Virus record (IMG/VR): IMGVR_UViG_3300042888_001607
Location: 1-20,130 of that record
Reading direction: 5' to 3' (one strand)
DNA: 20,130 nt
From: a virus
The position numbers and the translations under genes are program-made. Under the pieces are notes generated by a model. The model searched no databases. It saw only the letters and a program-made list of their open reading frames with translations, and was not told where the DNA came from. Within the stretch, counting starts at the first letter, position 1. Every line of letters starts with the position of its first letter. Of this stretch, positions 542 to 19,684 are shown piece by piece.

Positions 542-1039
542 CTACTCCAACTCCACCGCAGCCGCCTCAATCGCACGCCGCCGCCCCTCCAACTTCAAAG
601 CCAAACCCTCAATCGCAGTCAAATCCACCCCCAAAGAAACCCGCATATCAACAGGACCACCATCCGCACCAGTCAACTCAATCTTCGACGCATCCCTACG
701 CCCCCAACGCTCAGGGTTCTTACGCTCCCGAATCCAAGCAGCCGCCTGCCACTGCCCATCCTGCGCGCTACGGCGGATCAGAGCGATGTCCGCTACCTCT
801 GCGTCGGCTTCGGCTTTTTCTACTGCGCACAAAAATTCCATGTATTCGGGTGGGGCTTCAGGATTTTCGGCTTGTTTCAGCCAGTTTCGTAGTGTTTGGT
901 TGCTGATGCCTGCGTATTTGCACGCGACTTCCCTGTAGTTCCCTCCTCGTAGTGCGGTGATTATTTTGTCGCAGCGTTCTGGGTTGAACTTTGTGGGCCT
1001 GCCGGGGTGGTCGTAACTCGCTACAGGGGTCGTTGACAT
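542..1039 (-). CDS. terS: Small terminase subunit-like helix-turn-helix protein
   Basis: The 165-residue protein probably recognises phage DNA for packaging together with a large terminase subunit, which lies outside the window. The N-terminal third contains GRPTKF, then REVACKYAGISNQTLRNWLK, a clear helix-turn-helix. It is followed by an acidic helical region (VEKAEADAEVADIALIRRSA) and QAAAWIRERKNPERWGRRD, a pattern seen in many phage terS-like proteins. The ATG at 1039 lies 10 bases after AAGGAG. The ATG at 1048 is also in frame but only one base separates it from the same site. The start lies inside the end of the upstream ParB-like gene (17-base overlap). A transcription regulator of the same HTH class is the main alternative. 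Confidence 0.7.
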   Translation of the reverse strand: MSTTPVASYDHPGRPTKFNPERCDKIITALRGGNYREVACKYAGISNQTLRNWLKQAENPEAPPEYMEFLCAVEKAEADAEVADIALIRRSAQDGQWQAAAWIRERKNPERWGRRDASKIELTGADGGPVDMRVSLGVDLTAIEGLALKLEGRRRAIEAAAVELE

Positions 1040-1512
1040 GACGGGCATACTCCTTCGCCGGGTTTGCTGTTGTCTTCTTCTGGGGGTTGGAACCCTGCGG
1101 GCTGGTCTGTTGATTCGAGGAGCGCGTCGATGTCGTCTGTGCTGAAAGAGGTGGCGGCGAGGAGGGTCGCGTCGGCGGTGCGGACTTCTGCGAGCATCGC
1201 GAGGAGTTCTTTGTTGTCCCAACGGGAGAGATCGGAGGTGTGGTTGTCGGCTAGAGCGAACGCGAGCGCTTCGGCGTGGGTTGCTTCGACTTTGACGGCG
1301 GCTATTTCTGTCCAGCCGAGTTGGACGGCGGCGGCGTGGGTGTGGTTCCCCGCGATGATCTCCCCGTCTTGGTTTACGACTAGCGGTTTGAGTTGACCAA
1401 ACTGGGTGAGGCTCGCTTTGATCGCGTTGACGTTGCCGCGCCGCGGGTTTCTTTCCAACGGGCTGAGGCTATCGATGGGGACGAGTAGCGGTTGCAGATC
1501 TTCGGTGATCAT
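1021..1512 (-). CDS. ParB-like nuclease-fold protein with C-terminal CxxC
   Basis: The 163-residue protein has a single ParB N-terminal fold: NPRRGNV at residues 22-28, FGQLKPLVV, and IIAGNHTHAAAVQLGW with GNHT at 55-58, then ALADNHTSDLSRWD. GNHT replaces the GERR-type box of chromosomal ParB, so canonical CTP binding is doubtful. The C-terminus ends in CPSCQRPL, half of a zinc-ribbon-like site. ParB-like genes often sit directly before small terminase genes in actinobacterial phages, as here, but their role is unsettled. It is a paralogue of the rightward ParB modules at 1614 and 4275, and its promoter region is shared divergently with them. Confidence 0.85.
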   Translation of the reverse strand: MITEDLQPLLVPIDSLSPLERNPRRGNVNAIKASLTQFGQLKPLVVNQDGEIIAGNHTHAAAVQLGWTEIAAVKVEATHAEALAFALADNHTSDLSRWDNKELLAMLAEVRTADATLLAATSFSTDDIDALLESTDQPAGFQPPEEDNSKPGEGVCPSCQRPL

Positions 1513-1528
1513 CGGTGCGGCTTCTTTC

Positions 1529-1541
1529 CGGTTTTCAACCG
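1529..1541. promoter_or_regulatory. Short palindrome in divergent promoter region
   Basis: CGGTT and AACCG flank a three-base centre, TTC. The site lies between the proposed leftward -10 element and the leftward start codon, a position that would suit an operator. It is only 5 bp per arm, so it may be chance. Confidence 0.25.
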
Positions 1542-1554
1542 TTTATGTCCCCTG

Positions 1555-1563
1555 ATTCTACCA
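1555..1563 (-). promoter_or_regulatory. Candidate leftward extended -10 promoter
   Basis: The minus strand reads TGGTAGAAT: a TGn extension followed by TAGAAT, five of six matches to TATAAT. No good -35 is visible, as is tolerated by extended -10 promoters. It lies about 43 bases before the leftward ParB start and would drive the ParB and terS-like genes. Confidence 0.4.
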
Positions 1564-1567
1564 TACT

Positions 1568-1576
1568 TGGCATAAT
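1568..1576 (+). promoter_or_regulatory. Candidate rightward extended -10 promoter
   Basis: The sequence TGGCATAAT has the TGn extension and CATAAT, five of six matches to TATAAT. It is back to back with the leftward element, four bases away, and about 38 bases before the GTG start at 1614. No -35 is evident. It could drive the whole rightward ParB-methyltransferase block. Confidence 0.4.
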
Positions 1577-1613
1577 TATTTGGGGTAACGTGGAGTCTTC
1601 TTTGGAGGTATTT

Positions 1614-2315
1614 GTGTCTGGTGTTGTCCCGCAGTTGAAATCGTTATCTGTGCCGCTAACGGATCTGAAAACGTTAGAAGGCAATCCTCGTTTGGGGGAT
1701 GTTGAAGCGGTGATGCGTTCGCTTGAGAAGTTTGGGCAGCGTAAACCGATAGTCGCGCGTGAAAGTACTGGCGAGGTCATCGCTGGTAACCACACGTTTA
1801 TGGCAGCGGGGCGGCTCGGCTGGGACGAGATAGCTGTTGTCTGGGTTGACGACGATGACGCTACGGCTAAGGCGTTCGCTCTGGCTGATAACAGGACTTC
1901 AGAACTTGGCAGCTACGACAACGAGTTGCTTGCTGCGATGATCGCTGAGGTTATGGCTGACGACGAGGAGTTGCTTGCCGCCGCGTCCTACTCTGAAGCG
2001 GACCTTGCGGCTTTGCTGGAAGAAACGCTGGGCGATACCGCTGACGAGTTCAAACCGTTTGACGGGACGTATGACGGCTTCTCTGGCGACGGCGAGAAAA
2101 CGATGCCGATGAACGACGGGGAGTCAACGGCGGGGACTTGGGTCCAGCTACGCATCTCAGATGTCAAAGTTCATATCCTCGCTACCGTCTGGGTTGACTA
2201 CTACGACAAACTTTTACGCGAAGCGGGCGGCGACGGGGCGAAGGCTAAACACATATTGGCAACTCGGATGGGTTTTGAGGAGGGTGACTACGATGCAAGA
2301 AAGAACGCAAATTGA
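1614..2315 (+). CDS. ParB-like nuclease-fold protein
   Basis: The 233-residue protein starts at GTG 1614, five bases after GGAGG (1604-1608). The frame is open further upstream, but only this start has a ribosome site. The ParB fold spans about residues 10-100: EGNPRLGDV, FGQRKPIVA, EVIAGNHTFMAAGRLGWDE (GNHT 58-61) and FALADNRTSELGSYD. A helical acidic segment and a linker follow, then a C-terminal module (WVQLRISDVKVHI ... RMGFEE) of the kind that follows ParB domains in other phage proteins. There is no methyltransferase motif. Its first 130 residues closely match the ParB part of the DPPY methyltransferase at 4275, including a 27-base stretch with two mismatches. It overlaps the next gene by 23 bases. 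Confidence 0.85.
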   Translation: MSGVVPQLKSLSVPLTDLKTLEGNPRLGDVEAVMRSLEKFGQRKPIVARESTGEVIAGNHTFMAAGRLGWDEIAVVWVDDDDATAKAFALADNRTSELGSYDNELLAAMIAEVMADDEELLAAASYSEADLAALLEETLGDTADEFKPFDGTYDGFSGDGEKTMPMNDGESTAGTWVQLRISDVKVHILATVWVDYYDKLLREAGGDGAKAKHILATRMGFEEGDYDARKNAN

Positions 2316-3825
2316 AATCGTCGCAGTTGAAGATTTGCAACCCGATCCTATCAACCCTCGTGAACGTATAACGGAACGTGCTGCCGCTCTGGATATGTCG
2401 CTGTCGAAGTTTGGGCACGTCCTGCCTATCGTCGCTGACGTAGAAGGCACAATTGTTTCAGGCCACCAGCGGCACACCTCGCTGCTGAACCTTGGGGCCA
2501 CTATTTGCCCCGTGATCCGCGTGCCGTTACCGATGGACGAAATTCATCGCGGCGCGAGACTGATGTTGTTCAACTTGGCCTCTGCGGATATAGGCGACCG
2601 TGTACACCACGACCCGTCTGCGGACGAGGAGAAGTTTGCGGAGGTTATGGGACGGCTCGCGATGCGCGGCGAGATCGATTTAGACGACCCGAGCAACTGG
2701 CCGTGCATGAATACTGAGAACCGTTCCCTCAAAGATTTGCTAGAAGCGAACCCGCAGATCAAATTAGGTGCGGACTCCAAAGCCGACGGCACTATCACCC
2801 TCGCCCGCTACCCCTACAAGGTCAAACTCCCGATACTCGTAAACAAAGAAGGCAAAGTCGTATTTGGAAACCAGCGGTTTGCCGCCGCTGTTATGACTAA
2901 CGCTGAGTCGTGGCCGGTTGTAACGGTCAAAGACGACCCGCTACTAGCGGACACGTTGAACGTCATCGCGATGGGTTACGCCGCGGCTCCTATGAAAGAC
3001 GTTATGCGCGCCTCGGTGTGGCTTGGCCCGTCTTGGCGACGCAAAATACTGGGTCGTGGTTTCATTTTCTACACCGACCCAGTGAGCAAAACGTTTGAGT
3101 TCAACTTTGCGAAACGTAAAGACGAATGGATCGCACGCCACGGGACGTACATAGCTGATATTGGTGCTGGCGGGTTTGGCGAAGCGTCAATTCTTAACGG
3201 TGCTGGTATCCGTTCCGTCGCGTTTGAACCGTTTGCTTTACCGATGGGCGGCGATAGACCAGACCTAGAATTCACCCGCAAAATGGCGAGGGTATTCCTT
3301 GACGAGATCGCTCTTGGCAAACCGTTCGATTCTGTATTCGCTTCAGCGGTCCTGAATCAGGTGCCGTTCGAAGAGGACCGCTTCAGAGTTATCAGCCTCC
3401 TCCACGCTTTATGCGGGCCAAAGACAAAAGCGTTCTTCTCTTGCCTCGGCACTCAAGGAGCGGGCTGCAAAGCTTTCATGTCAGGTATGCCTACGCCTAC
3501 CAAGGGCCTGTCAGATGTGCGGGTTGGCGGCTTCGAACCGTACACGCAGATCACTTCGTTAGGGCAGGGGCGAGTCATGGTTCAAAAGTGGCACTCCAAA
3601 GAAGAACTGCTACACCTCGGCCACCAACTATTCAACGAGGTTCACATAGGCGAGTCCGCGACCTCGTATTTTGTGAGCGCGTCGAAACCTAAACCGATGA
3701 AGGCGGGGAACGTCCGCAAAGCGGTTGAGCATGAATTCGATTTGCCGTGGCCTGACGGACAACGCTTCGGTTTAGTCGACGAGGCTAAGGCTGCTTTCTC
3801 AAAACGGTTAGGCATGAAACTCTAA
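2293..3825 (+). CDS. Double ParB-like / class I SAM methyltransferase fusion
   Basis: The 510-residue protein starts at ATG 2293, eight bases after AGGAGGG. Residues 10-80 form a ParB-like module (DPINPRER, KFGHVLPIV, SGHQRHTSLL at 56-65). Residues about 168-240 form a second one (PYKVKLPILV, VFGNQRFAAAV at 190-200). Unlike the neighbouring GNHT proteins, both keep the arginine of the GxxR box. Residues about 280-460 are a class I methyltransferase: DIGAGGFG at 289-296, the acidic end of strand 2 at E312, and DSVFASAVLNQVP at 346-358. No (D/N/S)PPY or cytosine-C5 motif is seen, so a simple adenine or cytosine DNA methyltransferase is unlikely. The substrate is unknown. The ParB modules and the neighbouring DNA methyltransferase point to DNA or a DNA-bound partner. 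That is inference. Confidence 0.75.
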   Translation: MQERTQIEIVAVEDLQPDPINPRERITERAAALDMSLSKFGHVLPIVADVEGTIVSGHQRHTSLLNLGATICPVIRVPLPMDEIHRGARLMLFNLASADIGDRVHHDPSADEEKFAEVMGRLAMRGEIDLDDPSNWPCMNTENRSLKDLLEANPQIKLGADSKADGTITLARYPYKVKLPILVNKEGKVVFGNQRFAAAVMTNAESWPVVTVKDDPLLADTLNVIAMGYAAAPMKDVMRASVWLGPSWRRKILGRGFIFYTDPVSKTFEFNFAKRKDEWIARHGTYIADIGAGGFGEASILNGAGIRSVAFEPFALPMGGDRPDLEFTRKMARVFLDEIALGKPFDSVFASAVLNQVPFEEDRFRVISLLHALCGPKTKAFFSCLGTQGAGCKAFMSGMPTPTKGLSDVRVGGFEPYTQITSLGQGRVMVQKWHSKEELLHLGHQLFNEVHIGESATSYFVSASKPKPMKAGNVRKAVEHEFDLPWPDGQRFGLVDEAKAAFSKRLGMKL

Positions 3826-3832
3826 CCGGTCC

Positions 3833-4222
3833 ATGCAGCGCAGTATCGTGTGCGACATGAGTCAAATATTTTCTGGTGAATGGCCACGAACGCAGCGTCC
3901 ACCGTTTTACGATAAGCACCCCGCTCCTGCCGGTGTACCAGTCCTGTCTGTATCGGGGCTGATACGAGGAATCACTCTTAGCGGCGGCGCGGCTTGCCCG
4001 TCTAAATCTTGCGACGGCCACGTTATTGCTATCGACTGGGAAACGGGTCAACTGACTTTCCCATGTAGTAAAGGGTGGGAGCAGCGTGATGGCCACATCC
4101 GGCTAGTCGCTGGCGGCGAAATCACTGGACGGGTCATCAACCGAGTTGACCCGATTCCAAAATCGGAGTGGCCGACCAGAATTCTTACCGAGCAGATTCA
4201 GTGGCCCCAACTGGACGAATAA
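3833..4222 (+). CDS. Hypothetical Cys-containing small protein (129 aa)
   Basis: I do not recognise this protein. It follows the double-ParB methyltransferase after 7 bases. The middle reads GGAACPSKSCDGHVIAIDW, and a further FPCSKGWEQRDGH follows. The three cysteines and two histidines could form a metal site or simply a small Cys-containing fold. No ribosome site stands before ATG 3833 or the in-frame ATG at 3857 (MSQIFSGEW), so the start is uncertain. The gene lies between two methyltransferase genes, so it may be co-expressed with them as an accessory factor. Confidence 0.6.
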   Translation: MQRSIVCDMSQIFSGEWPRTQRPPFYDKHPAPAGVPVLSVSGLIRGITLSGGAACPSKSCDGHVIAIDWETGQLTFPCSKGWEQRDGHIRLVAGGEITGRVINRVDPIPKSEWPTRILTEQIQWPQLDE

Positions 4223-4274: not shown

Positions 4275-5498
4275 ATGATTTCAGAAGACCTGCTTAATCT
4301 CGCGACCCCGGTGAAGAACCTCAAACTGCTAGAAGGCAACCCTCGAAAAGGTGACGTCGCGGCTGTTGCGAAGAGCCTTGACACGTTTGGGCAACGTAAA
4401 CCAATAGTCGCGTTGCGGGACGGGACGGTTATAGCAGGGAACCACACGCTGCAAGCTGCCGTTTCGCTCGGTTGGGACGAGATCGCTGTCGTGTACACGG
4501 ACGACGATCCCGTTACCGCTAAGGCTTACGCTCTAGCGGATAACCGGACGGCTGAACTTGGCGGCTACGACGATGAAGCGTTGGCCGCTTTGATGTCTGA
4601 AGTCGCTGAAGCCGATCTGGAATTGTTTGCCGCTACAGCTTGGACGATTGACGATCTCGAATCGTTACTTGCCGACGCTGAAGAAGCTCTACCGTTGCCA
4701 GAAGACATCGATGACGTTCCCGAGCCGCCGCCAGCCGTTTCTAAAGTTGGCGACATGTGGATACTTGGAGACCACCGTGTTATCTGCGGCGACTCTACCG
4801 ACGCTGCAACCGTTTCCAAACTTATGGATTCAGATATTGCCGACATGGTTTGGACCGATCCACCTTACGGTGTGTCTTACGCTGGCGTGTCTGGTACTCC
4901 ACGAATCGAAATCGAAAACGACAACTTGGGATCGGACGACCTGTACAACTTCCTGAAGGCAGCGTTCGGCAACGCCGCCGCACATTGCAAACAGGGTGGT
5001 GCGTGGTTTGTTGCCGCCCCAGCAGGTCCAGCGATGTTTGCTTTCTCCCGGATTCTTTTTGAGATGGAGATATGGCGGCAGTCAATTGTCTGGTTGAAAG
5101 ATTCAATCGTTATGGGCCACTCCGATTACCACTACAAGCACGAACAGATCTTCTATGGGTGGTTACCGGGCGCGGCTCATCAAGACCCGCCAGATAGAAA
5201 ACAGGACAGCGTGTGGGAGATCGCCCGTCCTAAACGGTCGGCTGACCATCCAACGATGAAACCAGTGGCCTTGATAGAAAAGTCGTTACTGAACCACACG
5301 AAACGTGGTGCAATCGTTCTGGATACTTTCGGTGGGAGCGGTTCAACTATGGCGGCGTGCGAAGCGACGAAACGTAAAGCCCGTCTCGTTGAGTTTGAAC
5401 CCCACTACGTTGACGTCATTTGTAAACGCTACCAACTGCTGTCGAAGCAGATGCCTGTAAACGCCGAGACGGGCGAAGCGTACAACTTCGACGTTTGA
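4275..5498 (+). CDS. ParB-like / DNA methyltransferase fusion (DPPY type)
   Basis: The 407-residue enzyme should transfer a methyl group from SAM to an exocyclic amino group in DNA, most likely adenine N6. It starts at ATG 4275 after GAAAGG. Residues 10-105 are a ParB-like domain (EGNPRKGDV, FGQRKPIVA, GNHT at 55-58, ALADNRTAELGGYD). An acidic Pro-rich linker covers about 134-155. The methyltransferase follows: WILGDHRVICGDST at 162-175, catalytic TDPPYG at 194-199, HPTMKP at 325-330 and the SAM-binding DTFGGSGST at 350-358. The order DPPY then FGGSG is that of beta-class amino-methyltransferases. No restriction endonuclease is nearby, so protection of phage DNA from host restriction is the likely role. 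The recognition sequence cannot be read from the protein. Confidence 0.92.
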   Translation: MISEDLLNLATPVKNLKLLEGNPRKGDVAAVAKSLDTFGQRKPIVALRDGTVIAGNHTLQAAVSLGWDEIAVVYTDDDPVTAKAYALADNRTAELGGYDDEALAALMSEVAEADLELFAATAWTIDDLESLLADAEEALPLPEDIDDVPEPPPAVSKVGDMWILGDHRVICGDSTDAATVSKLMDSDIADMVWTDPPYGVSYAGVSGTPRIEIENDNLGSDDLYNFLKAAFGNAAAHCKQGGAWFVAAPAGPAMFAFSRILFEMEIWRQSIVWLKDSIVMGHSDYHYKHEQIFYGWLPGAAHQDPPDRKQDSVWEIARPKRSADHPTMKPVALIEKSLLNHTKRGAIVLDTFGGSGSTMAACEATKRKARLVEFEPHYVDVICKRYQLLSKQMPVNAETGEAYNFDV

Positions 5499-9473: not shown

Positions 9474-11413
9474 CAGGTGCCAACCGTTCCAAGAGGTTGC
9501 AAGTCGATAGACACGCTACCATCAAACCCGACTTTCACAGACTTCAACCGGAAGTCCGCTACGACTTGACGGCATGAAGCACTGCTGTCAACTCGCACTC
9601 TGATTCCCGGTATCAACTCCGGCAACGTGATCGGCGCTGTTGGTTTCAGGCCACCGCCAGAACCAGAGTCAATGTATAACTGGTCTTGCAGTAGAGCGAG
9701 TCGTGTGTTTGCCGCAGCTTGCGCAGACGCAACATCTTCAATTTCTGTTTCGCTGAAGGTTCGCACGAGGAGGCCGTAGAAGTCCGTATAAGCCGTGCCA
9801 GCAGTCGCAATACCTGTAACGCCTTTCCCTAGAACGATCACCTGTGTGGCTTGATCGTTGCCTCTAGCGCTGATCGTGGGTGGCTGAACCCAGAACTCGT
9901 CCGTCAGAACAACGTATGGATCGGCGGGGACTTGCTCGCCGCCGCAAAGAATGGTGCGCCCGTATGCCGAGTAGTCAATTCCTGTCTTAGCTAGTTCAGA
10001 TAAAAGATCAGACGCATACTTGTAATCTGTTTGTAAATAGGTTCTTGTGCCGAGGATGCCTGTCGGGGTTGTCGTGATACTGAAGTTCGCAACCGGATCA
10101 GTAGACATCGCAGAAGTAACAACAGACTCAAAGATCGTCGCAAGGTCCACGTTCACAAAGTTCAGATCGGCAGGCAACACACGCCTATCCCACCACGCGG
10201 TAAGATCAGCAGCAGTAACCTTGACCGTCCCGTACCCAAACTCCACGCCCGTCACTGGGCCGCACCACGCGTCTCGCCCGTCACGGTAAACGATGATCTC
10301 GGTATTCCACGGGTACACTTCTTCCCAATTATCGCAGCAGGATTCTCCGAGCAGACCAGAAGTTACGCCGGTCATTTCTAGGGTTGAGGTTGCGTCAACG
10401 TCGCGGGTGAAGGAACCGGATACGGGGTTGAGTTCTGCGATGACACTTCCGCCGCCGCGAGTCATTAGTAGGACTTGTAGGTCGTCGCCTACGCCGAGTG
10501 TTGCACCGGGCAGACAGGTCGGGGTGAGAACAGATTGAGAAGTTGGGTCCAACGCGCCCGAAATCGAAATTGATTCTACCCCCGGACCATTTTCGCTTCC
10601 AAAGAAAACTACGAGACTGTGTACCGGATAAACAGTTGGAATTGTTCCAGAAAAAACGATGGTTTCCCCTGCGGCGATTGGGCTGTCATTTGACCATCCG
10701 AACCCCTCGGGGACCGGACCAAGTGAAGTGAAACTTGAAGCCGTGCTAAAGATCGTCACCGCTAGTGACGGGCTGGAAATCTGAGAAGCTTGCGTCCAAG
10801 GTGGTACTGCGTCACCGGAAGTTGATATTCCAAATGCAGCAAAACTTGATCCTTCTACAAGCGGCACCTCTAGAGTTGCTGTTGTTTGTAGAAACATGCC
10901 GCCCGGTACAACCGAAGCTGTTGTCTCAAAGAATATACCGTCTGTCCATATGGATGATTCCCAATGGTATGGGAAATTGCTACAAGAGAAACAAGGCCCG
11001 TAGCACCCGAATGATGGTGAGTACTGTGCCGGTACACCAGACTGCATCACACCGTTTAGTGGAACACCTAAAGATGCAACGGGAGATGGAACTAACCCCG
11101 TGAACACATCTTGAGGCTGTGTTCGGATAACCGAGTAGCCGTCAGCGTCGAAGCATTCGTATATGTTTCCGAGCGAGTCCTCTATGTAAACACTGAGGGA
11201 CTGACAAACATTACATCCACCGCCGCCGTAAGCCGTAATTTGAGCGGGTGTCGCATCGAACTTAGTTACCAAACCGGGGCTGAAATAATAAAGCCATTTG
11301 ACGATTGGGTTAGTGCTAACAATGTTTACAACTGAAATATCTAAGACTTGCGCCGGGTAAGCCACACAGACTCCGGGGTCGTAACCGATAAGCAGTTCCC
11401 CGTAGATAGCCAC
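9473..11413 (-). CDS. Minor tail protein, hub-like (Gp37-like C-terminus)
   Basis: With start GTG 11413 the protein is 646 residues. That start lies two bases after the upstream stop and reads MAIYGELLIGYDPG. The alternative GTG 11464 would overlap the upstream gene by 49 bases without a ribosome site. The N-terminal half is Gly/Ser/Thr/Val-rich beta structure with several cysteines (GGGGCNVCQS). The C-terminal half has WEEVYPWNTEIIVYRDGRDAW followed by GVEFGYGTVKVTAADLTAW, DRRVLPADLNF and LLSELAKTGIDYSAYGRTI. This pattern is seen in siphovirus baseplate-hub or Gp37-like minor tail proteins of actinobacterial phages. It is expected at the tail tip, downstream of the distal-tail-like protein. 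Confidence 0.78.
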   Translation of the reverse strand: MAIYGELLIGYDPGVCVAYPAQVLDISVVNIVSTNPIVKWLYYFSPGLVTKFDATPAQITAYGGGGCNVCQSLSVYIEDSLGNIYECFDADGYSVIRTQPQDVFTGLVPSPVASLGVPLNGVMQSGVPAQYSPSFGCYGPCFSCSNFPYHWESSIWTDGIFFETTASVVPGGMFLQTTATLEVPLVEGSSFAAFGISTSGDAVPPWTQASQISSPSLAVTIFSTASSFTSLGPVPEGFGWSNDSPIAAGETIVFSGTIPTVYPVHSLVVFFGSENGPGVESISISGALDPTSQSVLTPTCLPGATLGVGDDLQVLLMTRGGGSVIAELNPVSGSFTRDVDATSTLEMTGVTSGLLGESCCDNWEEVYPWNTEIIVYRDGRDAWCGPVTGVEFGYGTVKVTAADLTAWWDRRVLPADLNFVNVDLATIFESVVTSAMSTDPVANFSITTTPTGILGTRTYLQTDYKYASDLLSELAKTGIDYSAYGRTILCGGEQVPADPYVVLTDEFWVQPPTISARGNDQATQVIVLGKGVTGIATAGTAYTDFYGLLVRTFSETEIEDVASAQAAANTRLALLQDQLYIDSGSGGGLKPTAPITLPELIPGIRVRVDSSASCRQVVADFRLKSVKVGFDGSVSIDLQPLGTVGT

Positions 11414-11415
11414 GG

Positions 11416-13332
11416 TCAGCCGCCCGATGCGAGGAACTTGCCCGCCGCACCAATCGTCACCCACGCACTATCAGACACGCGTGCATCAACCGAAATAATG
11501 AAACACAACGTCGCGCACTGCGGCAGATCAAACCACTGAAACCCTGCGAACCCCGCCGACCCAACAATGCCCTGACCAGAAGTGTAAGTACCGCCCGCAA
11601 GTTCCAACGAAACAATCCGGGTACGAGAGTCAATCGTGAGCGTCGAACCCGACGGGAGTTGCGAAACGGTTAGCTCCTGACACGGGACAATACATTTCCA
11701 ATATTCATCGTCTGCGATAATTCCACAAGGGCAAGGAATAGGCGGATCAAGATCAGCACGAGGATTCTCGTAAGCCGAGATTTTGAGGTTCCGCAGATCG
11801 GTAGCGCCCGCAAAAATTTGGATGAAAGAAGTTGCACTATTCCAGTCGGCAACATTTGTGTAAGACGCGCATATCTGTTTCGTTACCCACGGCTCGCACC
11901 AACAATCATCGTCAGGAATGAACGGCAACGGCGGCGGGGTACGAACTACACCGCAGTCAGGTTCAAACGAAATCGGTTCAATCTCAGGGCAGTCAATGCA
12001 GTCAGTAAAACACTTTTCATAAAGTTCAGCAGGGAACGGTTCCTCAAACACAGGGAACGTCAGATCAGAAAAGATGTACGGCAACTCAGAAGCAATCGTG
12101 AACTGAACCTTCAACGTCGTGTACCCGCACTGATCGCAGCAAGTACCGAACTTGTCCACGACCTTAGGACCGTCAACTAGCCCTGTGCGGTGCAGGACAC
12201 GACCGTAGTCCAACGGGTCAGCCTCAGCGGGTGGGCAGCACTTCAACATGAAGAAGTCACCCAACGCGCAATCAAAGCACCCAGTGGCACCGATCAGCGC
12301 CTCGTTGAGCCAGTGCAGCCCGTACTCTGAACCACAACAAGTCTTTGCAAACAGGTAACCCGTGACGGTGAGTGTTCGTGGCCCCAACTTTAGTGGCCCC
12401 AAACTCCCACCATAGATAGACGCAGGAGCTAGATCGCGTTGCACAACAGAATCAAAACCGGTTATGTCTTCAACAAACAGACCGTAGAAGTCACCTGACT
12501 CAGGCACCTCTGGATCGAACCACGCAGGGCTATCAACGCCGCCTGTCAGATCAAGTTCGTATATTCCCGACGGCCCGGTTACTTCCCATATCCAAGTCCA
12601 CCCCGTTGCAGAGATGCTCACAGGGGCGATACCGCCGCCGAAATCAAAGCAAACAAAACTCACTGCCGGAAACGATGCACCCACGATAGGTGTGTCCCAC
12701 CTGAACTCAACATCAACCGCGCCCGCAGGTTGAGACACAACTTGCGACGCTGTTCCAGCAGGAAAGAAGTTCCAGCCCGCAGAACCAGTACCAGTCACAG
12801 ATGTTGAACCCGGCAGCGGGTTAGTAAAATCGTCAACCGACCACAAGTACATCCCTGAATCTGCTGAAGTCCACAAACCCGTGTCAACGGTGATGCAACT
12901 GATTCTGCAACCAACAAGAACCGCTCCCGGCACAGGTGGAACTACCGGCATCGGAACACCCGCACCCATAAAATCTGAAGCAAAAGGCAGAGGAAACGTA
13001 TCGAACAGCAAATTGAGTGAAGCAGGATTCAAGCTCGAACCGGGCAGCAGCGGGATACCACCAAAAAGTCCTGCGTCGATCAAGTCGTCCGTCTGCTCAA
13101 CTTCAATCTCAGTCGTAGCGACCCCGTTAGGCTGGTCGCAAAACATCGCGGAAGCCGGAGAACACGGAACCTTGTTCACCGCATAGGGTCCAAGGTTGCC
13201 CGCTACGCCTGCTGCGTACCCGCCGAGAACTGTTGCCGCGTCAACCCCGTAAGGATTGCCACGCAAATAGTCAAGGGTCCGCTGGTTGTTCCATAGCTCA
13301 GTCTGGTTGCCGTAACAGTAAGCCTGATACAT
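11416..13332 (-). CDS. Cys-rich minor tail protein, distal-tail-like
   Basis: This 638-residue protein is the first gene after the tape measure, the usual place of the distal tail protein (Dit). It starts with a TGATG overlap. The C-terminal 150 residues (DWNSATSFIQIFAGATDLRNL, LTIDSRTRIVSLELAGG, ARVSDSAWVTIGAAG) look like the beta-sandwich end of such proteins. The central part contains RTLTVTGYLFAKTCCGSEYG. There are about 28 cysteines, several in CC or CxxC pairs (KTCC, LKCC, GTCCDQC, CWC, CPC), unusual for a tail protein and suggestive of disulfide or metal cross-linking outside the cell. The N-terminal 300 residues (about 1-300) are a large insertion relative to a typical Dit. The Dit assignment rests mainly on position. 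Confidence 0.75.
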   Translation of the reverse strand: MYQAYCYGNQTELWNNQRTLDYLRGNPYGVDAATVLGGYAAGVAGNLGPYAVNKVPCSPASAMFCDQPNGVATTEIEVEQTDDLIDAGLFGGIPLLPGSSLNPASLNLLFDTFPLPFASDFMGAGVPMPVVPPVPGAVLVGCRISCITVDTGLWTSADSGMYLWSVDDFTNPLPGSTSVTGTGSAGWNFFPAGTASQVVSQPAGAVDVEFRWDTPIVGASFPAVSFVCFDFGGGIAPVSISATGWTWIWEVTGPSGIYELDLTGGVDSPAWFDPEVPESGDFYGLFVEDITGFDSVVQRDLAPASIYGGSLGPLKLGPRTLTVTGYLFAKTCCGSEYGLHWLNEALIGATGCFDCALGDFFMLKCCPPAEADPLDYGRVLHRTGLVDGPKVVDKFGTCCDQCGYTTLKVQFTIASELPYIFSDLTFPVFEEPFPAELYEKCFTDCIDCPEIEPISFEPDCGVVRTPPPLPFIPDDDCWCEPWVTKQICASYTNVADWNSATSFIQIFAGATDLRNLKISAYENPRADLDPPIPCPCGIIADDEYWKCIVPCQELTVSQLPSGSTLTIDSRTRIVSLELAGGTYTSGQGIVGSAGFAGFQWFDLPQCATLCFIISVDARVSDSAWVTIGAAGKFLASGG

Positions 13333-16300
13333 CAGCGCCTCGTAAAGTTGACACGGGTCGAAGCCTGCTCACGAGCCTCAATCTCAGCAATTACTTGAGC
13401 CATACTGATCCCGTAGATGTTGTAGGTGTTGCCCTGACCGGGGAACAAACCCTGAACCTCAACACTACCCGCCGCTCCTGCCCCTACAGGGATGGCCCCT
13501 GTGTCGCCTTGTGTGGCCGCACGTTGGCCCGCCGCCTGCGACAGTACGCCTAGCAGCCCGGACTGCTCTGCGAGCTGTAACGCCCGCATAGGGCGCGTCA
13601 GGGGGATAACTACTTCAGGACCAGCCTCGCCAAGCATCGCCGTCATCCGGCTCCGCACATAAGCGCCGTTAGCTAGACCAGCGTGAACGTGGTCGTGGTG
13701 ATCCGCAGCGGTAATCGGGTTGCGAACAAACCCGCCGCCCGGACCCGAATAAATTAGCTCTTGGAGAATGCCACGCACCGGCTCGAACGCCCGATAAATT
13801 CTCAGCAACTCCGGTGAATCCCGGCTAGGCCGCAACCCTGCAAAGTCAACCGCCCGCCCTGAAGCGTGCAGCGAAGCGCGCGCGCCGCCAGAACCACGAG
13901 TTGTAGCACCGGGACGCACCGTCGAAACAGCACGGAACGGGACACCCGTCGCGTTCATGTAATCGATGAGCGCCCGATAGTTGCCGGGGCGACCAGCAAC
14001 CTGCCGCAACCTCTCAACCGCAGCAGGCAACCCGATAGGAACACCGCCGGGGAACGCAGTGCCAACACCGCCCATAGCATCCGCAGTTGCCTTATTAGCT
14101 TCCTCAATTTTCTGACCAACGAATCCAAGGCCACCCATCGCAGCAGAAGAAGTAATAGCACCCAAGTACTTAGGCGCATAGAAAGCTTGCTCAGTCAAGC
14201 TCTTAGCCTCAGCGAACGTAACCTTGAGAGCGTCTTTCAACCCTTCCAGAATTGACGAAGGTAACGAAGCAAACGAGTCTCCACTCGGCGGTGGCATCGG
14301 TGCAGCGGGCGCACCCATCTGCGGCAAGAACCGTTGGGTCATGGCCTTATCTGCACGAGGGTCACGTTCGCCAAAATCACCTCGCCGGATAGTTTCGAAC
14401 TCGGCAGGGGTCATTGCTTTCATAACGCTCGCAGGGATAACACCCTCGCCGCGTTGCATCTTCACGAGCATCTCAGAAGACTCAAACGGCCCACCTGTTT
14501 CAGGTAACCGGCCACCAATCACACCACCGGAGTGTGCTGTCGGGAAAGACAACGACGGAATGTTTATGTTCGCCGTGGCTGGTATCTGATCCAACGCCCC
14601 TGTCAAAGTCGTGGCAAACGGATTCCAAATTCCTGTTGCGAAACTGCGGAACGGTGCAGCAACCGCAGTCGTGATCTGACCAGCTACGCCGCCCATGAAC
14701 GCAGGCAACGCGCCAAATCCTGCTTCTAAGCCGGTCTTCCAAGTCGTGACGTACACGCTCAGGTCAGCAAAGACGGCTTTGAACGAAGAAGCAAACACGC
14801 CCATCCCGCCCGCCATACTCAACCAGATCAACCCACCCGTGTTTGCAAGCAACGCACTGATCGTCATCGGCCACAGCGCGATGTACGCAGTCAAACTTTC
14901 AAGCAACATCAATATTTGCGTAGCGAGGAACTGGAACGTGACTTGAACTCCAGCCCACACGGTTTCCCCGAAGGTCTTGAGCGAGTCAATAGCAAACGTT
15001 GAGAGTGTCGCAAACCAATCTTTGATCGGTTGCAAAGCAACTATTGCAGAGTCAACAACAGACGACATCGCTGTCGTGACCGTGGCCGCTACCCCGCTTG
15101 CATCAGGCGTGGCCGGTGGCGCTGACATCGCGATGCCGGGTGAACCGCTAGAGATCAGATTCATCAAACCAGACTGAACGAGTAGTTCTTTAGCCCGCTC
15201 AGGTTTGGTCAACGGGATAACAACCTCAGCGCCGTCTTCACCGATCAAAGCGTTTGTTGCCGTGGTAATGATTCCACCTTGAGCAAGGGGAATATCAGGA
15301 ACCTCTGGAAGCCCTGAGAATGGTTTAGCGCCGAACACCGAAATGTTACGCAACTTGTTTATCAACTTGTCGTTTATGAAACCACGCAACGCATTGAAAA
15401 TCTTGGCAGCAAAATTGAACGCACCCGTAGCCGCACCACCAAGAGCGTCAACAAGTTTGCCGGGGATACCTTTGAAGAAATCAACCAAGCCCGTGAGAAG
15501 CTCAGGGCCTTTCTCTTTGACCAGATCAAACCCTGCTTTAGCCCAAGTGAACAGTTGCTCACCGATAGCACCAAGACCACCAATCAGCATCCCCGGAATA
15601 CCAGTCACCCACCCAAGCACGGTAGCGAGAACCTCCGGCCCCTTCTCCACAATAAAGTTGAACGCGATCTTCACCCCATCGAACAGCAAACCGCCGAGTG
15701 TCAGCAGCCCGTCAACGAGCATCCTTGGAATCGTCAGAATCCAACCCAGCAACGTCGCGAGGATGCCCGGCCCGTTCTCCACCAACCAGTTGAACGCCGC
15801 TGTCAACCAGCCCAACAGCATCCCACCAAGATTGCCAAGCAACCCGAGGAGCATTCCCGGTATACCTGAAATCCAACCCCACAGAGTTGCGAGGATACCG
15901 GGACCGTTTTCGACCAACCAGTTGAACGCTGTTGTGAGCCAACCTAAGAGCATCCCGCCAAGGTCACCGAGTAACCCGATGAGCGAACTGCCGATCCCCG
16001 AAATCCAACCCCAAAGTGTCGCAAGTATCATCGGTCCGTTTTCAACAATGAAGTTGAACGCAAGTTTCAGACCATCAAACAAAAGTTGTCCAAGCCCGAG
16101 AAGCATTCCCGGCAGCATCTTCAACCCATCCCAAATGAACCCGAGAAGCATCGGGATACCCTCAGTGAACAACCACGACCCGACCGATGCGAGAGCAGGC
16201 ATGAGCGCACCGATCAGCGTCCCCGCCAAATCGCCTATCTTGCCGAACGTCTCACCGAGGTTGCTAAACAGGTTTTTGATGCCTTCTAGCGCGCCTTTGA

Positions 16301-19300
16301 AATCGCCGGTGAACAACTTCTTCAGCGTGTTGAAAGCGTCGATCAACGGTTGCAGATACAACCCCTTGATGATGTCGAACCACTTCTGGAAGATCGGCCA
16401 GATCGCGTCCACGGCAGTCATCAACGCGCCGCCAATGATGTCCGCAATTTTCTTGATAGCAGGCCACAGAGTGTTCTGAAAGAAGTCGCCTATCTTGTCA
16501 ACGATGTCTCTGAACGGTTTGAAGTTCTTGTAAGCGATAACTACGCCTGCGACGAGAGCAGCAATCGCAACAACGATTAGACCAATCGGGTTAGCGTTTA
16601 GCGCAGCGTTCAGTAACCATTGCGCACCCGTCCAAACAGCCGTTGCTACTTTCGCGGCTTTCATCAGCCCGCTATAGATAGTGATTGCCACGTTCTGTGC
16701 AGCGAACAACGCGGCAGCAGCACCATTAGCAATGTTCCCTAGAAGTTGTGCGGCAGCATACGCCGCAAGCGCCCCGACGATCAGATAAAGCAGAGGCTCA
16801 AACTCCAACAGCTTCGCAACCAAACCAACAATCGGCGGGAGCAACACAATCGCTTGAACAGCCATCTCAGCAAGCTGAGGAATAATAGGAATAATAGCGT
16901 TCAACAGATTTATCATTATGTCCACAAGCGGCATCAACGACGGCAACATCTCAATCACCGCTAACGCAACCTGAAGCATCGCATCCGCAAGAATAGGAAT
17001 GAACGGTGTGATCGCCTCAAACACATCACCAACCGCCGTAATCAACGGTTTGATGCCATCTAACACAGGAGCAAGCCCTGTAGCAAATGCTGTTACAAGT
17101 TCGATGATGACGGGCAAAATAGCCATGATCGCTTCTAAGAAGTTCGCACCGATGTTCGTAACGAGTTCAACAATCGTTGGCAACAGAGGAAGCAACGCTG
17201 TTAGCAAAGTCCCGAACGCTTCAGCCATTGACTGCAACAACGGAACCAGCACCGGCAAGAAGCCGGTAATCATTTCAGCAAAAGTTGAAACCAGTGTTTG
17301 CAGAAACGGGGCCACGACAGTCAGTGCGGTAGCAAGCGCCCCGCCAAGCACCTCAGCAATAGTCAAGAACGGTGGCGCTAACGCAAGAACCACATCTAAC
17401 AACACGTCACCAAGTTGAGAAACAAGTTGAGCGATCAACGGTCCAAGAACTGCAAGAACAGGACCAAGAACATTGCCAATCACATCGCCTATCACATACA
17501 ACGCTTGAGCGAGTACCGGCAAAATTGCTTCAGCAAAGTTTCCTAATATGCCGATGATAGGAGTGAAGATAGGTAACAGGTCACCAATGACCGCTCCAAT
17601 CGTTGTGAACGTTTCAGTTATAACCGGGCCAAGCGTTGCGAACGTTTCAGCGAACGCACCCGCTAACGCTTCTAACCCCGGCGTGATCCCTTCTAGCAAA
17701 CCTGCGAACGACCCGCCTAGCGTCACAAGAATAGGACCAACAGCCTCCATCAGCGGGGCAAGCGCCCCGCCGAGTGCCGTGCCAACCTCTTGCAATACTG
17801 GGCCGAGTGTTTCAGCGAGCTTAGAAAACACATCAGCGAACACCGTTACAATAGGCAGCAGCCCTGCGCCGAACGATTCCTTCAAGTTGTCAACAACGGT
17901 TTTCAACCGTTCCATCGGGTTAGCCGCAGCCGCAGCCGCACCACCCATCTGACCTTCGACCTCACCGAGAATAAGTTTCTGCGCGCTTAGTAGATCGCCT
18001 GCTTCGACTAGCCCCTTGATCGTTTCCTTCTGCTCCGCAGTGAACTGGATACCAGATTTGCCAAGAGCAGTCATGCCCTTGATCGGGTCGTTGAGCGCCT
18101 TGCCGAGCATCACCGATGACCCGGCGAAGTCCTTACCAAGAACGGTTGAAACGTCAAGGACTGCTTTCTGAGTCCTAGCAAAGATGTCGTTGCCTTCGCC
18201 CATCTGGTCTTTAATATTCTTGAACGTCAACAGCACATTCGACGAGGACTTGATTGCCTCATCGTCGATACCAGTCTTGTTAGACAACGACACGGCAAGA
18301 TCGTCAATTTGTTTCGCTGAAAGGTTTGCCGCCCCGCCGGTGGCCGCAATGACAGCTTCAGTGATCCGCCCGATACGAGCAGACTCGTTAGCCGCCTCAA
18401 CCGATTCCTTGATCGCGCCGCCGAGAACATAGAACCCGGCAGTCGCGATACCAATACCAATAGCCGCCTTACCAAACCCGCCCATCCCCGTCTTACCAGC
18501 CTGATCAACTTGCTGCATTGCGCGTTCAGACTCGCGCGCCGATTCCTTAAACTCCCCGGTTATCCTCTCGCCCGCAGCTTTGGCCGCCGCCAACAAACCC
18601 TGAAAAGTAGAACTGTCACCAATAGCCCGCAGCGCCGCCTGCCCCTGACGACCCGCTTCCTTAAACGCCCCCGTGACTTTCTCCCCGGCGCTCGAAGCCG
18701 CCGCCGCCAAACCCGTGAACGCTGAACCATCGGCCACGCTCCGCAACGCCGTCGAAGCTTGCCGACCCGCTTCCTTGAACGCGCCTGTAACCTTCTCCCC
18801 AACAGCAGACGCAGCAGCAGCCAGACCTTGAAACGCACCCGCCTGAGAAACCGTGTCTAGCGCCGCAGATGACTGCCGTGCAGATTCCTTGAACGCAGCC
18901 GTGACCTTCTCGCCTGTCCCATACGCCGCCGTCATCAACTTCTGAAAGTTGACTGCCTTATCAACGGTGTCAAACGCAGCAGAAGATTTGCGCGCCGATT
19001 CCTGCATCGAAGAAGAAACCTTGTCGCCCGCACTATAAGCAGCGGTCATCAACTTCTGAAAGTCAACGGCCTTATCAACGCTCTCAAACGCCGCCGACGA
19101 TTTACGAGCGGAGTCCTGCAACGACGAAGAAACCTTCTCCCCCGCCTTGCTCGCATCCGCAGCGACCTCGGTGAACGCTTTACCAGTGGCCGCTAATAGG
19201 TTATCGCTGGCTTTCTTTCCCGCCTCGCCAAACGACTTAGCAAGCGGTGCAGCAACATCAGACTTAGCTAACTGCTGGGCCATCTCACGCGTCAAAGCCT

Positions 19301-19382
19301 GAATCGTTTGAGACATCTCTTTACGGAACAGAGAGAAGTCAGGAACGATCTCAATGACCGCGCGCCCTATGACGTCAGCCAT
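13332..19382 (-). CDS. Tape measure protein with M15-like peptidase domain
   Basis: At 2016 residues this is a very long tape measure protein, which sets tail length. ATG 19382 overlaps the upstream stop as TGATG; a TTG one codon earlier is less likely. In order: an N-terminal MADVIGRAVIEIVPDFS segment; about six 38-residue helical repeats (about 70-295); a long hydrophobic region (about 470-1000) containing LNANPIGLIVVAIAALVAG, a classic tape measure motif; about four full 44-residue repeats rich in Trp/Gly/Leu (about 1090-1310); a GEDGAEVVIPLT box near 1385; and a peptidase domain near 1800-1905 with SLHASGRAVDF and HDHVHAG, the SxHxxGxAxD and HxH metal-site motifs of M15/LAS peptidases. 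A second GEAGPEVVIPLT box follows. The peptidase probably opens the cell wall during DNA entry. Confidence 0.95.
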   Translation of the reverse strand: MADVIGRAVIEIVPDFSLFRKEMSQTIQALTREMAQQLAKSDVAAPLAKSFGEAGKKASDNLLAATGKAFTEVAADASKAGEKVSSSLQDSARKSSAAFESVDKAVDFQKLMTAAYSAGDKVSSSMQESARKSSAAFDTVDKAVNFQKLMTAAYGTGEKVTAAFKESARQSSAALDTVSQAGAFQGLAAAASAVGEKVTGAFKEAGRQASTALRSVADGSAFTGLAAAASSAGEKVTGAFKEAGRQGQAALRAIGDSSTFQGLLAAAKAAGERITGEFKESARESERAMQQVDQAGKTGMGGFGKAAIGIGIATAGFYVLGGAIKESVEAANESARIGRITEAVIAATGGAANLSAKQIDDLAVSLSNKTGIDDEAIKSSSNVLLTFKNIKDQMGEGNDIFARTQKAVLDVSTVLGKDFAGSSVMLGKALNDPIKGMTALGKSGIQFTAEQKETIKGLVEAGDLLSAQKLILGEVEGQMGGAAAAAANPMERLKTVVDNLKESFGAGLLPIVTVFADVFSKLAETLGPVLQEVGTALGGALAPLMEAVGPILVTLGGSFAGLLEGITPGLEALAGAFAETFATLGPVITETFTTIGAVIGDLLPIFTPIIGILGNFAEAILPVLAQALYVIGDVIGNVLGPVLAVLGPLIAQLVSQLGDVLLDVVLALAPPFLTIAEVLGGALATALTVVAPFLQTLVSTFAEMITGFLPVLVPLLQSMAEAFGTLLTALLPLLPTIVELVTNIGANFLEAIMAILPVIIELVTAFATGLAPVLDGIKPLITAVGDVFEAITPFIPILADAMLQVALAVIEMLPSLMPLVDIMINLLNAIIPIIPQLAEMAVQAIVLLPPIVGLVAKLLEFEPLLYLIVGALAAYAAAQLLGNIANGAAAALFAAQNVAITIYSGLMKAAKVATAVWTGAQWLLNAALNANPIGLIVVAIAALVAGVVIAYKNFKPFRDIVDKIGDFFQNTLWPAIKKIADIIGGALMTAVDAIWPIFQKWFDIIKGLYLQPLIDAFNTLKKLFTGDFKGALEGIKNLFSNLGETFGKIGDLAGTLIGALMPALASVGSWLFTEGIPMLLGFIWDGLKMLPGMLLGLGQLLFDGLKLAFNFIVENGPMILATLWGWISGIGSSLIGLLGDLGGMLLGWLTTAFNWLVENGPGILATLWGWISGIPGMLLGLLGNLGGMLLGWLTAAFNWLVENGPGILATLLGWILTIPRMLVDGLLTLGGLLFDGVKIAFNFIVEKGPEVLATVLGWVTGIPGMLIGGLGAIGEQLFTWAKAGFDLVKEKGPELLTGLVDFFKGIPGKLVDALGGAATGAFNFAAKIFNALRGFINDKLINKLRNISVFGAKPFSGLPEVPDIPLAQGGIITTATNALIGEDGAEVVIPLTKPERAKELLVQSGLMNLISSGSPGIAMSAPPATPDASGVAATVTTAMSSVVDSAIVALQPIKDWFATLSTFAIDSLKTFGETVWAGVQVTFQFLATQILMLLESLTAYIALWPMTISALLANTGGLIWLSMAGGMGVFASSFKAVFADLSVYVTTWKTGLEAGFGALPAFMGGVAGQITTAVAAPFRSFATGIWNPFATTLTGALDQIPATANINIPSLSFPTAHSGGVIGGRLPETGGPFESSEMLVKMQRGEGVIPASVMKAMTPAEFETIRRGDFGERDPRADKAMTQRFLPQMGAPAAPMPPPSGDSFASLPSSILEGLKDALKVTFAEAKSLTEQAFYAPKYLGAITSSAAMGGLGFVGQKIEEANKATADAMGGVGTAFPGGVPIGLPAAVERLRQVAGRPGNYRALIDYMNATGVPFRAVSTVRPGATTRGSGGARASLHASGRAVDFAGLRPSRDSPELLRIYRAFEPVRGILQELIYSGPGGGFVRNPITAADHHDHVHAGLANGAYVRSRMTAMLGEAGPEVVIPLTRPMRALQLAEQSGLLGVLSQAAGQRAATQGDTGAIPVGAGAAGSVEVQGLFPGQGNTYNIYGISMAQVIAEIEAREQASTRVNFTRR
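13680..13990 (-). other. M15/LAS peptidase domain within tape measure protein
   Basis: The domain contains RAVSTVRPG, then SLHASGRAVDF (His and Asp metal ligands), then DHHDHVHAG (the second His pair). Both are the conserved metal-binding motifs of M15 D-Ala-D-Ala carboxypeptidase-like enzymes. It is flanked by a tape-measure GEAGPEVVIPLT box. No separate endolysin is visible in the window. Confidence 0.75.
15440..16150 (-). repeat. 132-bp tandem repeats in tape measure gene
   Basis: The protein repeats every 44 residues, each unit holding a G-W-(I/V) pair, an IPGMLLGLLG-like stretch, a hydrophobic L-rich segment, then an AFNWLVENGP-like end. Four full units and two partial ones are seen. 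The DNA copies are 132 bases apart: the ACCAACCAGTTGAACGC motif occurs near 15780 and again 132 bases later. They probably arose by tandem duplication. Confidence 0.8.
18500..19190 (-). repeat. 114-bp tandem repeats in 5' part of tape measure gene
   Basis: About six units of 38 residues follow the pattern F-x-x-L-x-x-A-A-x-x-x-G-(E/D)-K-V ... E-(S/A)-(A/G)-R ... A-(A/L)-x-x-V. The DNA copies are 114 bases apart: GTCATCAACTTCTGAAAGT starts at 18931 and at 19045. The predicted structure is amphipathic helix. Copy number changes would change tail length. Confidence 0.8.
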
Positions 19383-19684
19383 CAACGCACCCCGTGGAAC
19401 TGTGTATCAGAGTCAGCAAGCGTGTGCTGATCCGCGAAAGCATCATGGTCACTATTCCACCACGCCGGAGCCTCTTTGCCCTGCATACTTGCAGGCAACA
19501 TCGGATCGTCGATGATCTCGCCGCCGTGTTCACCGAGCCGTCCTGCCAGAGCGAGGTTCACTTTCTTTCTGCCTTCCTCGTCAGCGTCAGCAACAAGATG
19601 CGAGTAAGCAAAGTTCAGCATCTGTATTAACGACAGGTCGGTCAGCCGTAAACCTTTGCCGACCAACACGCCGTCAACTTCCAA
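19382..19684 (-). CDS. Tail assembly chaperone, second part (frameshift product)
   Basis: The frame encodes MEVDGVLVGKGLRLTDL ... FAYSHLVADADEEGRKKVN. Its only internal start before the folded part is a TTG at 19684 with no ribosome site. The frame is open upstream to 19747, inside the preceding gene, and lies in the -1 frame relative to it. This is the standard G/GT arrangement of tail chaperones, where a -1 slip near the end of the first gene makes a fused product. The fused region would read through SSWCAANALEVDG. A slip in the overlap 19720-19747 is required; the best site is CCCTTCC, without a classic X-XXY-YYZ heptamer. It overlaps the tape measure start by TGATG. Confidence 0.7.
   Translation of the reverse strand: MEVDGVLVGKGLRLTDLSLIQMLNFAYSHLVADADEEGRKKVNLALAGRLGEHGGEIIDDPMLPASMQGKEAPAWWNSDHDAFADQHTLADSDTQFHGVR

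Follow-up and report, generated by a model that had tools for sequence, protein, structure and literature searches.

A stretch of viral DNA of 20,130 nucleotides (IMG/VR record IMGVR_UViG_3300042888_001607, positions 1 to 20,130, here called the window in its whole length) carries a gene for a protein that joins two ParB-like modules to a methyltransferase-like domain, and the question raised by this locus is which group the enzyme transfers, from which donor, and onto which target. An earlier note, made from the sequence alone, placed the peculiarity of the protein in its acceptor and named an already modified base, a nucleotide, or a protein. It had missed a tie between the protein family and CmoA, and with that tie the unusual feature is more likely to be the donor, carboxy-SAM, than the acceptor. 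The reading that we favor, with moderate confidence, is a DNA-directed phage alkyltransferase whose CmoA-linked relatives carboxymethylate phage DNA, while the branch to which the window protein belongs methylates from SAM. Functional statements in this report rest on sequence, predicted structure, and gene order.

The open reading frame encodes 510 amino acids (aa), with an ATG at 2293 and a stop codon ending at 3825; an alternative in-frame ATG lies 5′ of it at 2161, and the relatives start near 2293. The protein is a full-length member of PHROG 5475 (E value, 6.6e-58; residues 10 to 507 against profile positions 6 to 457 of 458), and because relatives match along its whole length at 26 to 47% identity, the frame is not a chance one. 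PHROG 5475 is a widespread, unstudied family of unknown function, and no NCBIfam model fits it. A scan of viral contigs with the window protein as a single sequence returned no relatives; alignment-based scans succeeded and matched 328 stretches in IMG/VR, many of the member-bearing contigs being fragments. The assembled set holds 92 distinct members, and residue conservation was counted in 91 relatives. Full-length relatives at about 30% identity are found in Aeromonas phage HJ05, Gordonia phage Evaa, and twelve Pseudomonas phage records. A protein of a 48-kb Escherichia coli phage-plasmid (L040, positions 11275 to 12648) was rejected as a full member and is a distant cousin: it is shorter, with one clear ParB module, a transferase domain, and a piecewise profile match. 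Such cousins matched in 57 Escherichia plasmids and in some of Salmonella and Klebsiella, and CmoA was absent from the plasmid examined.

The domain layout read earlier from the letters (two ParB modules that keep an arginine, then a class I SAM-type domain without PPY) was borne out, with AF2 giving a model of the full protein at a pLDDT of 84.2 and a pTM of 0.78. The ParB-CTPase fold (PF02195) was recognized in module 1 by structure and in module 2 by profile. On module 1, PF02195 matched residues 6 to 75 below the Pfam cutoff (E value, 0.0014; score, 19 against 26.3), and the fold predicted there (model of residues 1 to 246; pLDDT, 84.9) is that of the ParB-CDP structure 6sdk (Z, 9.2; rmsd, 1.6 Å; 95 residues). 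Profile-profile alignment of module 2 with module 1 (HHalign) gave 97.8% probability (E value, 7.7e-13; 48 columns), and the AF2 secondary structure elements follow in equal order (module 1/module 2 residues, 27-40/160-171, 46-49/181-183, 53-56/189-191, 58-66/193-201, 71-77/206-211, and 86-97/216-225). Module 2 is a shortened, degenerate copy of module 1. SGHQR and GNQR both conform to the GxxR pattern of the P motif, and, as the earlier note had remarked, their arginine is missing from the neighboring ParB-like genes, all three of which read GNHT; the P-motif arginines R60 and R195 are invariant in 91/91 relatives, as are G57, H58, Q59, and G192, and N191, invariant elsewhere in the family, is F in the window protein. 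At least module 1 probably binds a nucleotide and helps to hold DNA.

The transferase domain has a class I SAM-type fold, with METTL6 as its best match (VIA-align; Z, 13.6; rmsd, 3.4; 192 aa) and glycine N-methyltransferase, CcbJ, CypM, and small-molecule methyltransferases as the nearest folds otherwise (VIA-align listing and Foldseek); the CmoB fold was not among the matches listed. Both stretches from which the fold had been proposed, DIGAGGFG and SAVLNQVPF (the latter at residues 351 to 359), lie within it, and N355, P358, and F359 are present in 91/91 relatives. The domain contains no PPY, PCQ, or SPPC motif, and the sole PC of the protein stands in WPCM at about residue 138, between domains. 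There is no PF01555 match in the protein, whose motif IV region is NQVPF, and hence no sign of an N6/N4 amino methyltransferase; nor is it of CmoX type, with no PF00145 match in the window and no SPPC in the protein. PF08003 (Methyltransf_9, CmoB) matched neither the window nor the other phage records searched. The claim that the transferase is by motif neither an amino- nor a C5-methyltransferase thus held, and the evidence is consistent with a target that differs from that of standard DNA methyltransferases.

Table 1. Features of the window at and around the ParB-ParB transferase gene
Feature	Coordinates	Strand	Evidence
Terminase small subunit	542..1048	-	phrog_4102 (6.2e-33)
Third separate ParB-like gene (GNHT)	1021..1512	-	PF02195 (1.5e-6), phrog_620
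Separate ParB-like gene (GNHT), directly upstream, overlapping the 2293 start	1641..2315	+	PF02195, phrog_723
Putative ParB-ParB-class I alkyltransferase, PHROG 5475 family	2293..3825	+	Open reading frame, phrog_5475 profile, full-length relatives
ParB module 1, residues 6-100, P motif SGHQR (56-60)	2308..2592	+	PF02195, 6sdk fold match
ParB module 2, degenerate, residues 160-226, P motif GNQR (192-195)	2770..2970	+	HHalign, secondary structure
Class I SAM-type transferase domain, residues 228-470	2974..3702	+	VIA-align METTL6
Residues 244-245, Arg-Arg in relatives, Leu-Gly in window	3022..3027	+	Conservation count
Motif I DIGAGGFG, residues 289-296	3157..3180	+	Inside class I SAM-type fold
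Motif IV region NQVPF, residues 355-359	3355..3369	+	NSVPF or NSIPF in relatives
Residue 429, Lys in relatives, Met in window branch	3577..3579	+	Conservation count
129-aa Cys-containing protein, CPSKSCDG and FPCSKGW	3833..4222	+	Orthologue adjoining gene in L126
ParB (GNHT) fused to ordinary N6/N4 DNA methyltransferase (TDPPYG)	4275..5498	+	PF01555 (1.6e-21), phrog_498 (2.4e-120)

The 129-aa protein that follows the gene (Table 1) matched no Pfam or PHROG family. The minor tail protein of the window matches those of actinobacteriophages, so the host of this phage, judged by sequence similarity, is probably an actinobacterium. A very long tape-measure-like protein (13332 to 19385, minus strand) carries near its end HASGRAVDF...HHDHVH, which resembles a metal peptidase domain.

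CmoA is the enzyme that forms carboxy-SAM, using SAM and prephenate (PMC12783734). Among the 72 distinct members whose downstream sequence reaches at least 3 kb, 69 have a CmoA homologue on the same strand, at most 3 kb downstream (median gap, 407 bp; overlapping or within 10 bp in 13/69). Over 1.23 Mb of family loci, all 86 CmoA matches lie downstream of the family gene and on its strand, with none upstream or elsewhere. As for the three exceptions, two genomes (L022 and L039) have a CmoA match farther off, and the third locus (L082) extends only 3.06 kb downstream. TIGR00740 (CmoA) matched 31 of 37 records. In HJ05, Evaa, the Pseudomonas phages, and a Rhizobium plasmid, CmoA is the next gene after the enzyme or nearly so, and these homologues (TIGR00740 E values, 6e-26 to 3e-37; PDB matches, YecO 1im8 and E. 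coli CmoA 4gek) score under the NCBIfam equivalog cutoff. All 14 phage records with a full-length member carry CmoA, against 59 of 50,697 phage records matched by one CmoA query. A separate ParB-like gene lies just upstream in 62 of the 72 family loci with room for one.

The residue at the position of E. coli CmoA Arg199 was considered as a test of carboxy-SAM synthesis and set aside as uninformative: in the CmoA alignments and L043 (1441 to 2166), the experimentally active CmoA of Synechococcus phage S-B43 has Glu there, and the phage homologues have R, K, N, S, T, A, or E, many without Arg, so Arg199 is no reliable sign of carboxy-SAM synthesis.

No CmoX with an SPPC motif was present at any family locus, although CmoX may sit elsewhere in the genomes of fragmentary contigs. 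Searches of the HJ05, Evaa, PA_L9, SM1, G014, G016, and Rhizobium plasmid p7 records gave no C5-methyltransferase match; nothing of CmoB type turned up in the phage records searched, and most long records had no N6/N4 methyltransferase. Evaa has the ParB-ParB enzyme and CmoA as its only annotated methyltransferases. In Pseudomonas phage PaBG, the genes run ParB, CmoX, CmoA, hypothetical protein, and asparagine synthase; the operon order is that of HJ05, with CmoX where the ParB-ParB enzyme stands in HJ05. The C5-methyltransferases of S-B43 and PaBG have SPPC, whereas the few in family loci do not: those near L007, L047, L059, L061, L013, and L097 were tried as CmoX and rejected, none with SPPC and most with PCQ. 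Asparagine-synthetase-like (CmoY-type) genes occur in HJ05, p7, G014, G016, and a Nostoc genome, and several long records (Evaa, PA_L9, and SM1) lack ligase genes.

Further genes were noted around the family loci. At L022 (6811 to 10825), two asparagine-synthetase-like genes abut the enzyme gene, one on each side; in Nostoc linckia (L039, near 8000), similarly sized genes take the same places, with asparagine synthase matches in that genome stretch. On Rhizobium plasmid p7 (L041, 1212 to 6114), ribonucleotide reductase, an asparagine-synthase-like gene, and SAM decarboxylase lie a few kilobases before the ParB, methyltransferase, and CmoA genes, and this decarboxylase could supply an amine for ligation. 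A HAD-like gene with a DLNxT motif (137 to 150 aa) often lies between the enzyme and CmoA (e.g., L007, 8621 to 9073, and L009, 4151 to 4564); by a loose pattern the motif occurs in 48 of 64 enzyme-CmoA gaps, with no Pfam match, and gene 4 of Evaa, in its place, is annotated as a phosphatase. The thymidylate synthase/hydroxymethylase family was rejected as the source of a pre-modified base, being present in only 2/11 records. None of the needed genes lies in the first 50 kb of S-B43.

The window protein forms a long branch (SH-aLRT, 100) with two other members, L125 (46% identity, partial) and L126 (47% identity, full length, with an orthologue of the 129-aa neighbor and ParB genes around it); two further scans for this branch found no close relatives beyond these. 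Adjoining the member at L125, a protein combines an N6/N4-methyltransferase stretch with a PLP-dependent enzyme domain (1008 to 2603, minus strand). No CmoA lies beside the transferase in the 16.3 kb downstream or in the whole 20.1 kb of the window, a fragmentary record, nor was one found in L126 (11.5 kb) or L125; the rest of the window phage genome may hold a CmoA. Against the 91 other members, all three proteins share the substitutions F243W, R244L, R245G/N, S356Q, D422S, P428V, and K429M, and the two that cover the positions share N90L, R95L, D127E, and N191F/C. Residues 244 and 245 read Leu-Gly in the window protein and Leu-Asn in L126 and L125, with R244 present in 88/91 relatives and R245 in 91/91; S356, present in 91/91, is Q in the branch; and K429 is present in 89/91, the other two having gaps.

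Since the CmoA link disappears along with two arginines and a lysine, the carboxylate of carboxy-SAM may be held by R244, R245, and K429, and the window branch more likely uses ordinary SAM and transfers a plain methyl group. A single evolutionary step on a long branch makes this argument only suggestive: the CmoA link and the arginines may have been lost in one event with no causal tie between them. As a branch that seems to have lost CmoA, it offers a natural comparison for the residues that select carboxy-SAM over SAM.

For the family as a whole, the carboxymethyltransferase role is best supported because of the CmoA linkage, the lack of another candidate transferase in the records searched, the gene order of PaBG, and the asparagine-synthetase-like genes. 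In the mechanism that we propose, the two ParB-fold modules are fused to the class I SAM-type domain, carboxy-SAM would be made from SAM and prephenate by the CmoA that almost every relative has downstream, and its carboxymethyl group would be moved by the ParB-ParB enzyme onto a base in phage DNA. The enzyme would play the part of S-B43 CmoX, although its domain is unrelated and lacks the catalytic SPPC cysteine, and the family would be a second kind of phage DNA carboxymethyltransferase. Ligases of the CmoY type, similar to asparagine synthetase, would then probably extend the carboxyl group in some phages. In the window branch, with no CmoA found and two Arg and a Lys replaced, a plain methyl group would come from SAM. 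No report of an assay of any family member was found in the open-access literature. A bolder form of this reading, which we regard as possible but doubtful, would make the CmoA-linked members a second, independently evolved class of carboxy-SAM DNA carboxymethyltransferases that act at a position other than C5 of cytosine. Their ParB modules would serve as a DNA clamp gated by a nucleotide, and the window branch would be a natural reversion to methyl transfer, having lost the residues for the extra carboxylate, with R244, R245, and K429 as candidates.

Three other accounts were weighed against carboxymethylation of DNA. That the family consists of ordinary SAM-dependent DNA methyltransferases with an unusual active site, CmoA being linked incidentally or serving SAM depletion or tRNA modification, would agree with the class I SAM fold and its motif I and with the ParB modules common in phage DNA methyltransferases (PMC12704722), and it describes the most likely state of the window branch, with no CmoA nearby. 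For the family we consider it unlikely, since a link seen in 69/72 members, always downstream on the same strand, is hard to call incidental, and CmoX is exchanged for the enzyme at the same operon position in PaBG. We give still less weight to a CmoM-like capping role, in which another enzyme would transfer the carboxymethyl group and the family would modify the carboxymethylated base with SAM; CmoM does methylate a carboxylate with SAM in the tRNA pathway (PMC12783734), and the fold is of the general SAM-methyltransferase type. However, the CmoA-bearing records searched held no other candidate transferase (neither SPPC-type CmoX nor CmoB), and Evaa has no third annotated methyltransferase.

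The transferase fold resembles those of small-molecule, tRNA, and protein methyltransferases, and because of that resemblance (nearest folds METTL6, glycine N-methyltransferase, CcbJ, and CypM) the substrate may be a protein or a nucleotide, as the earlier note had allowed, or a small molecule, rather than DNA. We hold this to be improbable, given the ParB modules, the frequent upstream ParB-like gene, the packaging-gene neighborhood, and a place in the operon that CmoX, a DNA enzyme, can fill. Carboxymethylation of phage DNA from carboxy-SAM remains our preferred reading for the CmoA-linked family; the earlier interpretation was right about the architecture and the motifs and less well supported in calling such a domain order poorly described.

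Among known systems, fusions of ParB and SAM-dependent methyltransferases in phages are surveyed in PMC12704722, so the claim that such a domain order is poorly described has lost ground. The family belongs to the same general architecture class as the ParB-CTPase fold fusions treated there and keeps the GxxR arginine in both modules; ATP binding was shown there for one bacterial fusion, and nucleotide binding was lost on R-to-A changes in GxxR. The available part of that survey describes neither the tandem ParB arrangement nor the CmoA link. The ParB-N6/N4 DNA methyltransferases of phrog_498 likewise fuse a ParB module to a transferase, but the window copy has one ParB module and PF01555 with DPPY, whereas the family protein has two modules and neither of the latter. 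CmoB (PF08003; PMC4482062) shares the class I SAM-type fold and, for the family presumably, the use of carboxy-SAM; it differs in that the family has no PF08003 sequence match, carries ParB modules, and is expected to act on DNA rather than tRNA.

The closest parallel is the CmoA-CmoX-CmoY system of S-B43. Carboxy-SAM modification of phage DNA was described only in December 2025 (PMC12783734), with one transferase type, CmoX, a C5-cytosine enzyme in S-B43 with SPPC and a carboxylate-binding Arg; ParB-domain genes near CmoX were noted there, and a preliminary search gave no adenine N6- or cytosine N4-carboxymethyltransferase candidates associated with CmoA. Neither that source nor PMC12704722, in their available open-access parts, describes the present family beside CmoA. 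Both systems have CmoA in the operon adjoining an alkyltransferase, a ParB-domain gene nearby in many contigs, and, in some genomes, an asparagine-synthetase-like ligase; the family differs from S-B43 CmoX in its class I domain, its two ParB modules, and its lack of the SPPC cysteine. It provides a concrete candidate for a carboxymethyltransferase of non-C5 type, and cultured Pseudomonas, Aeromonas, and Gordonia phages carry members.
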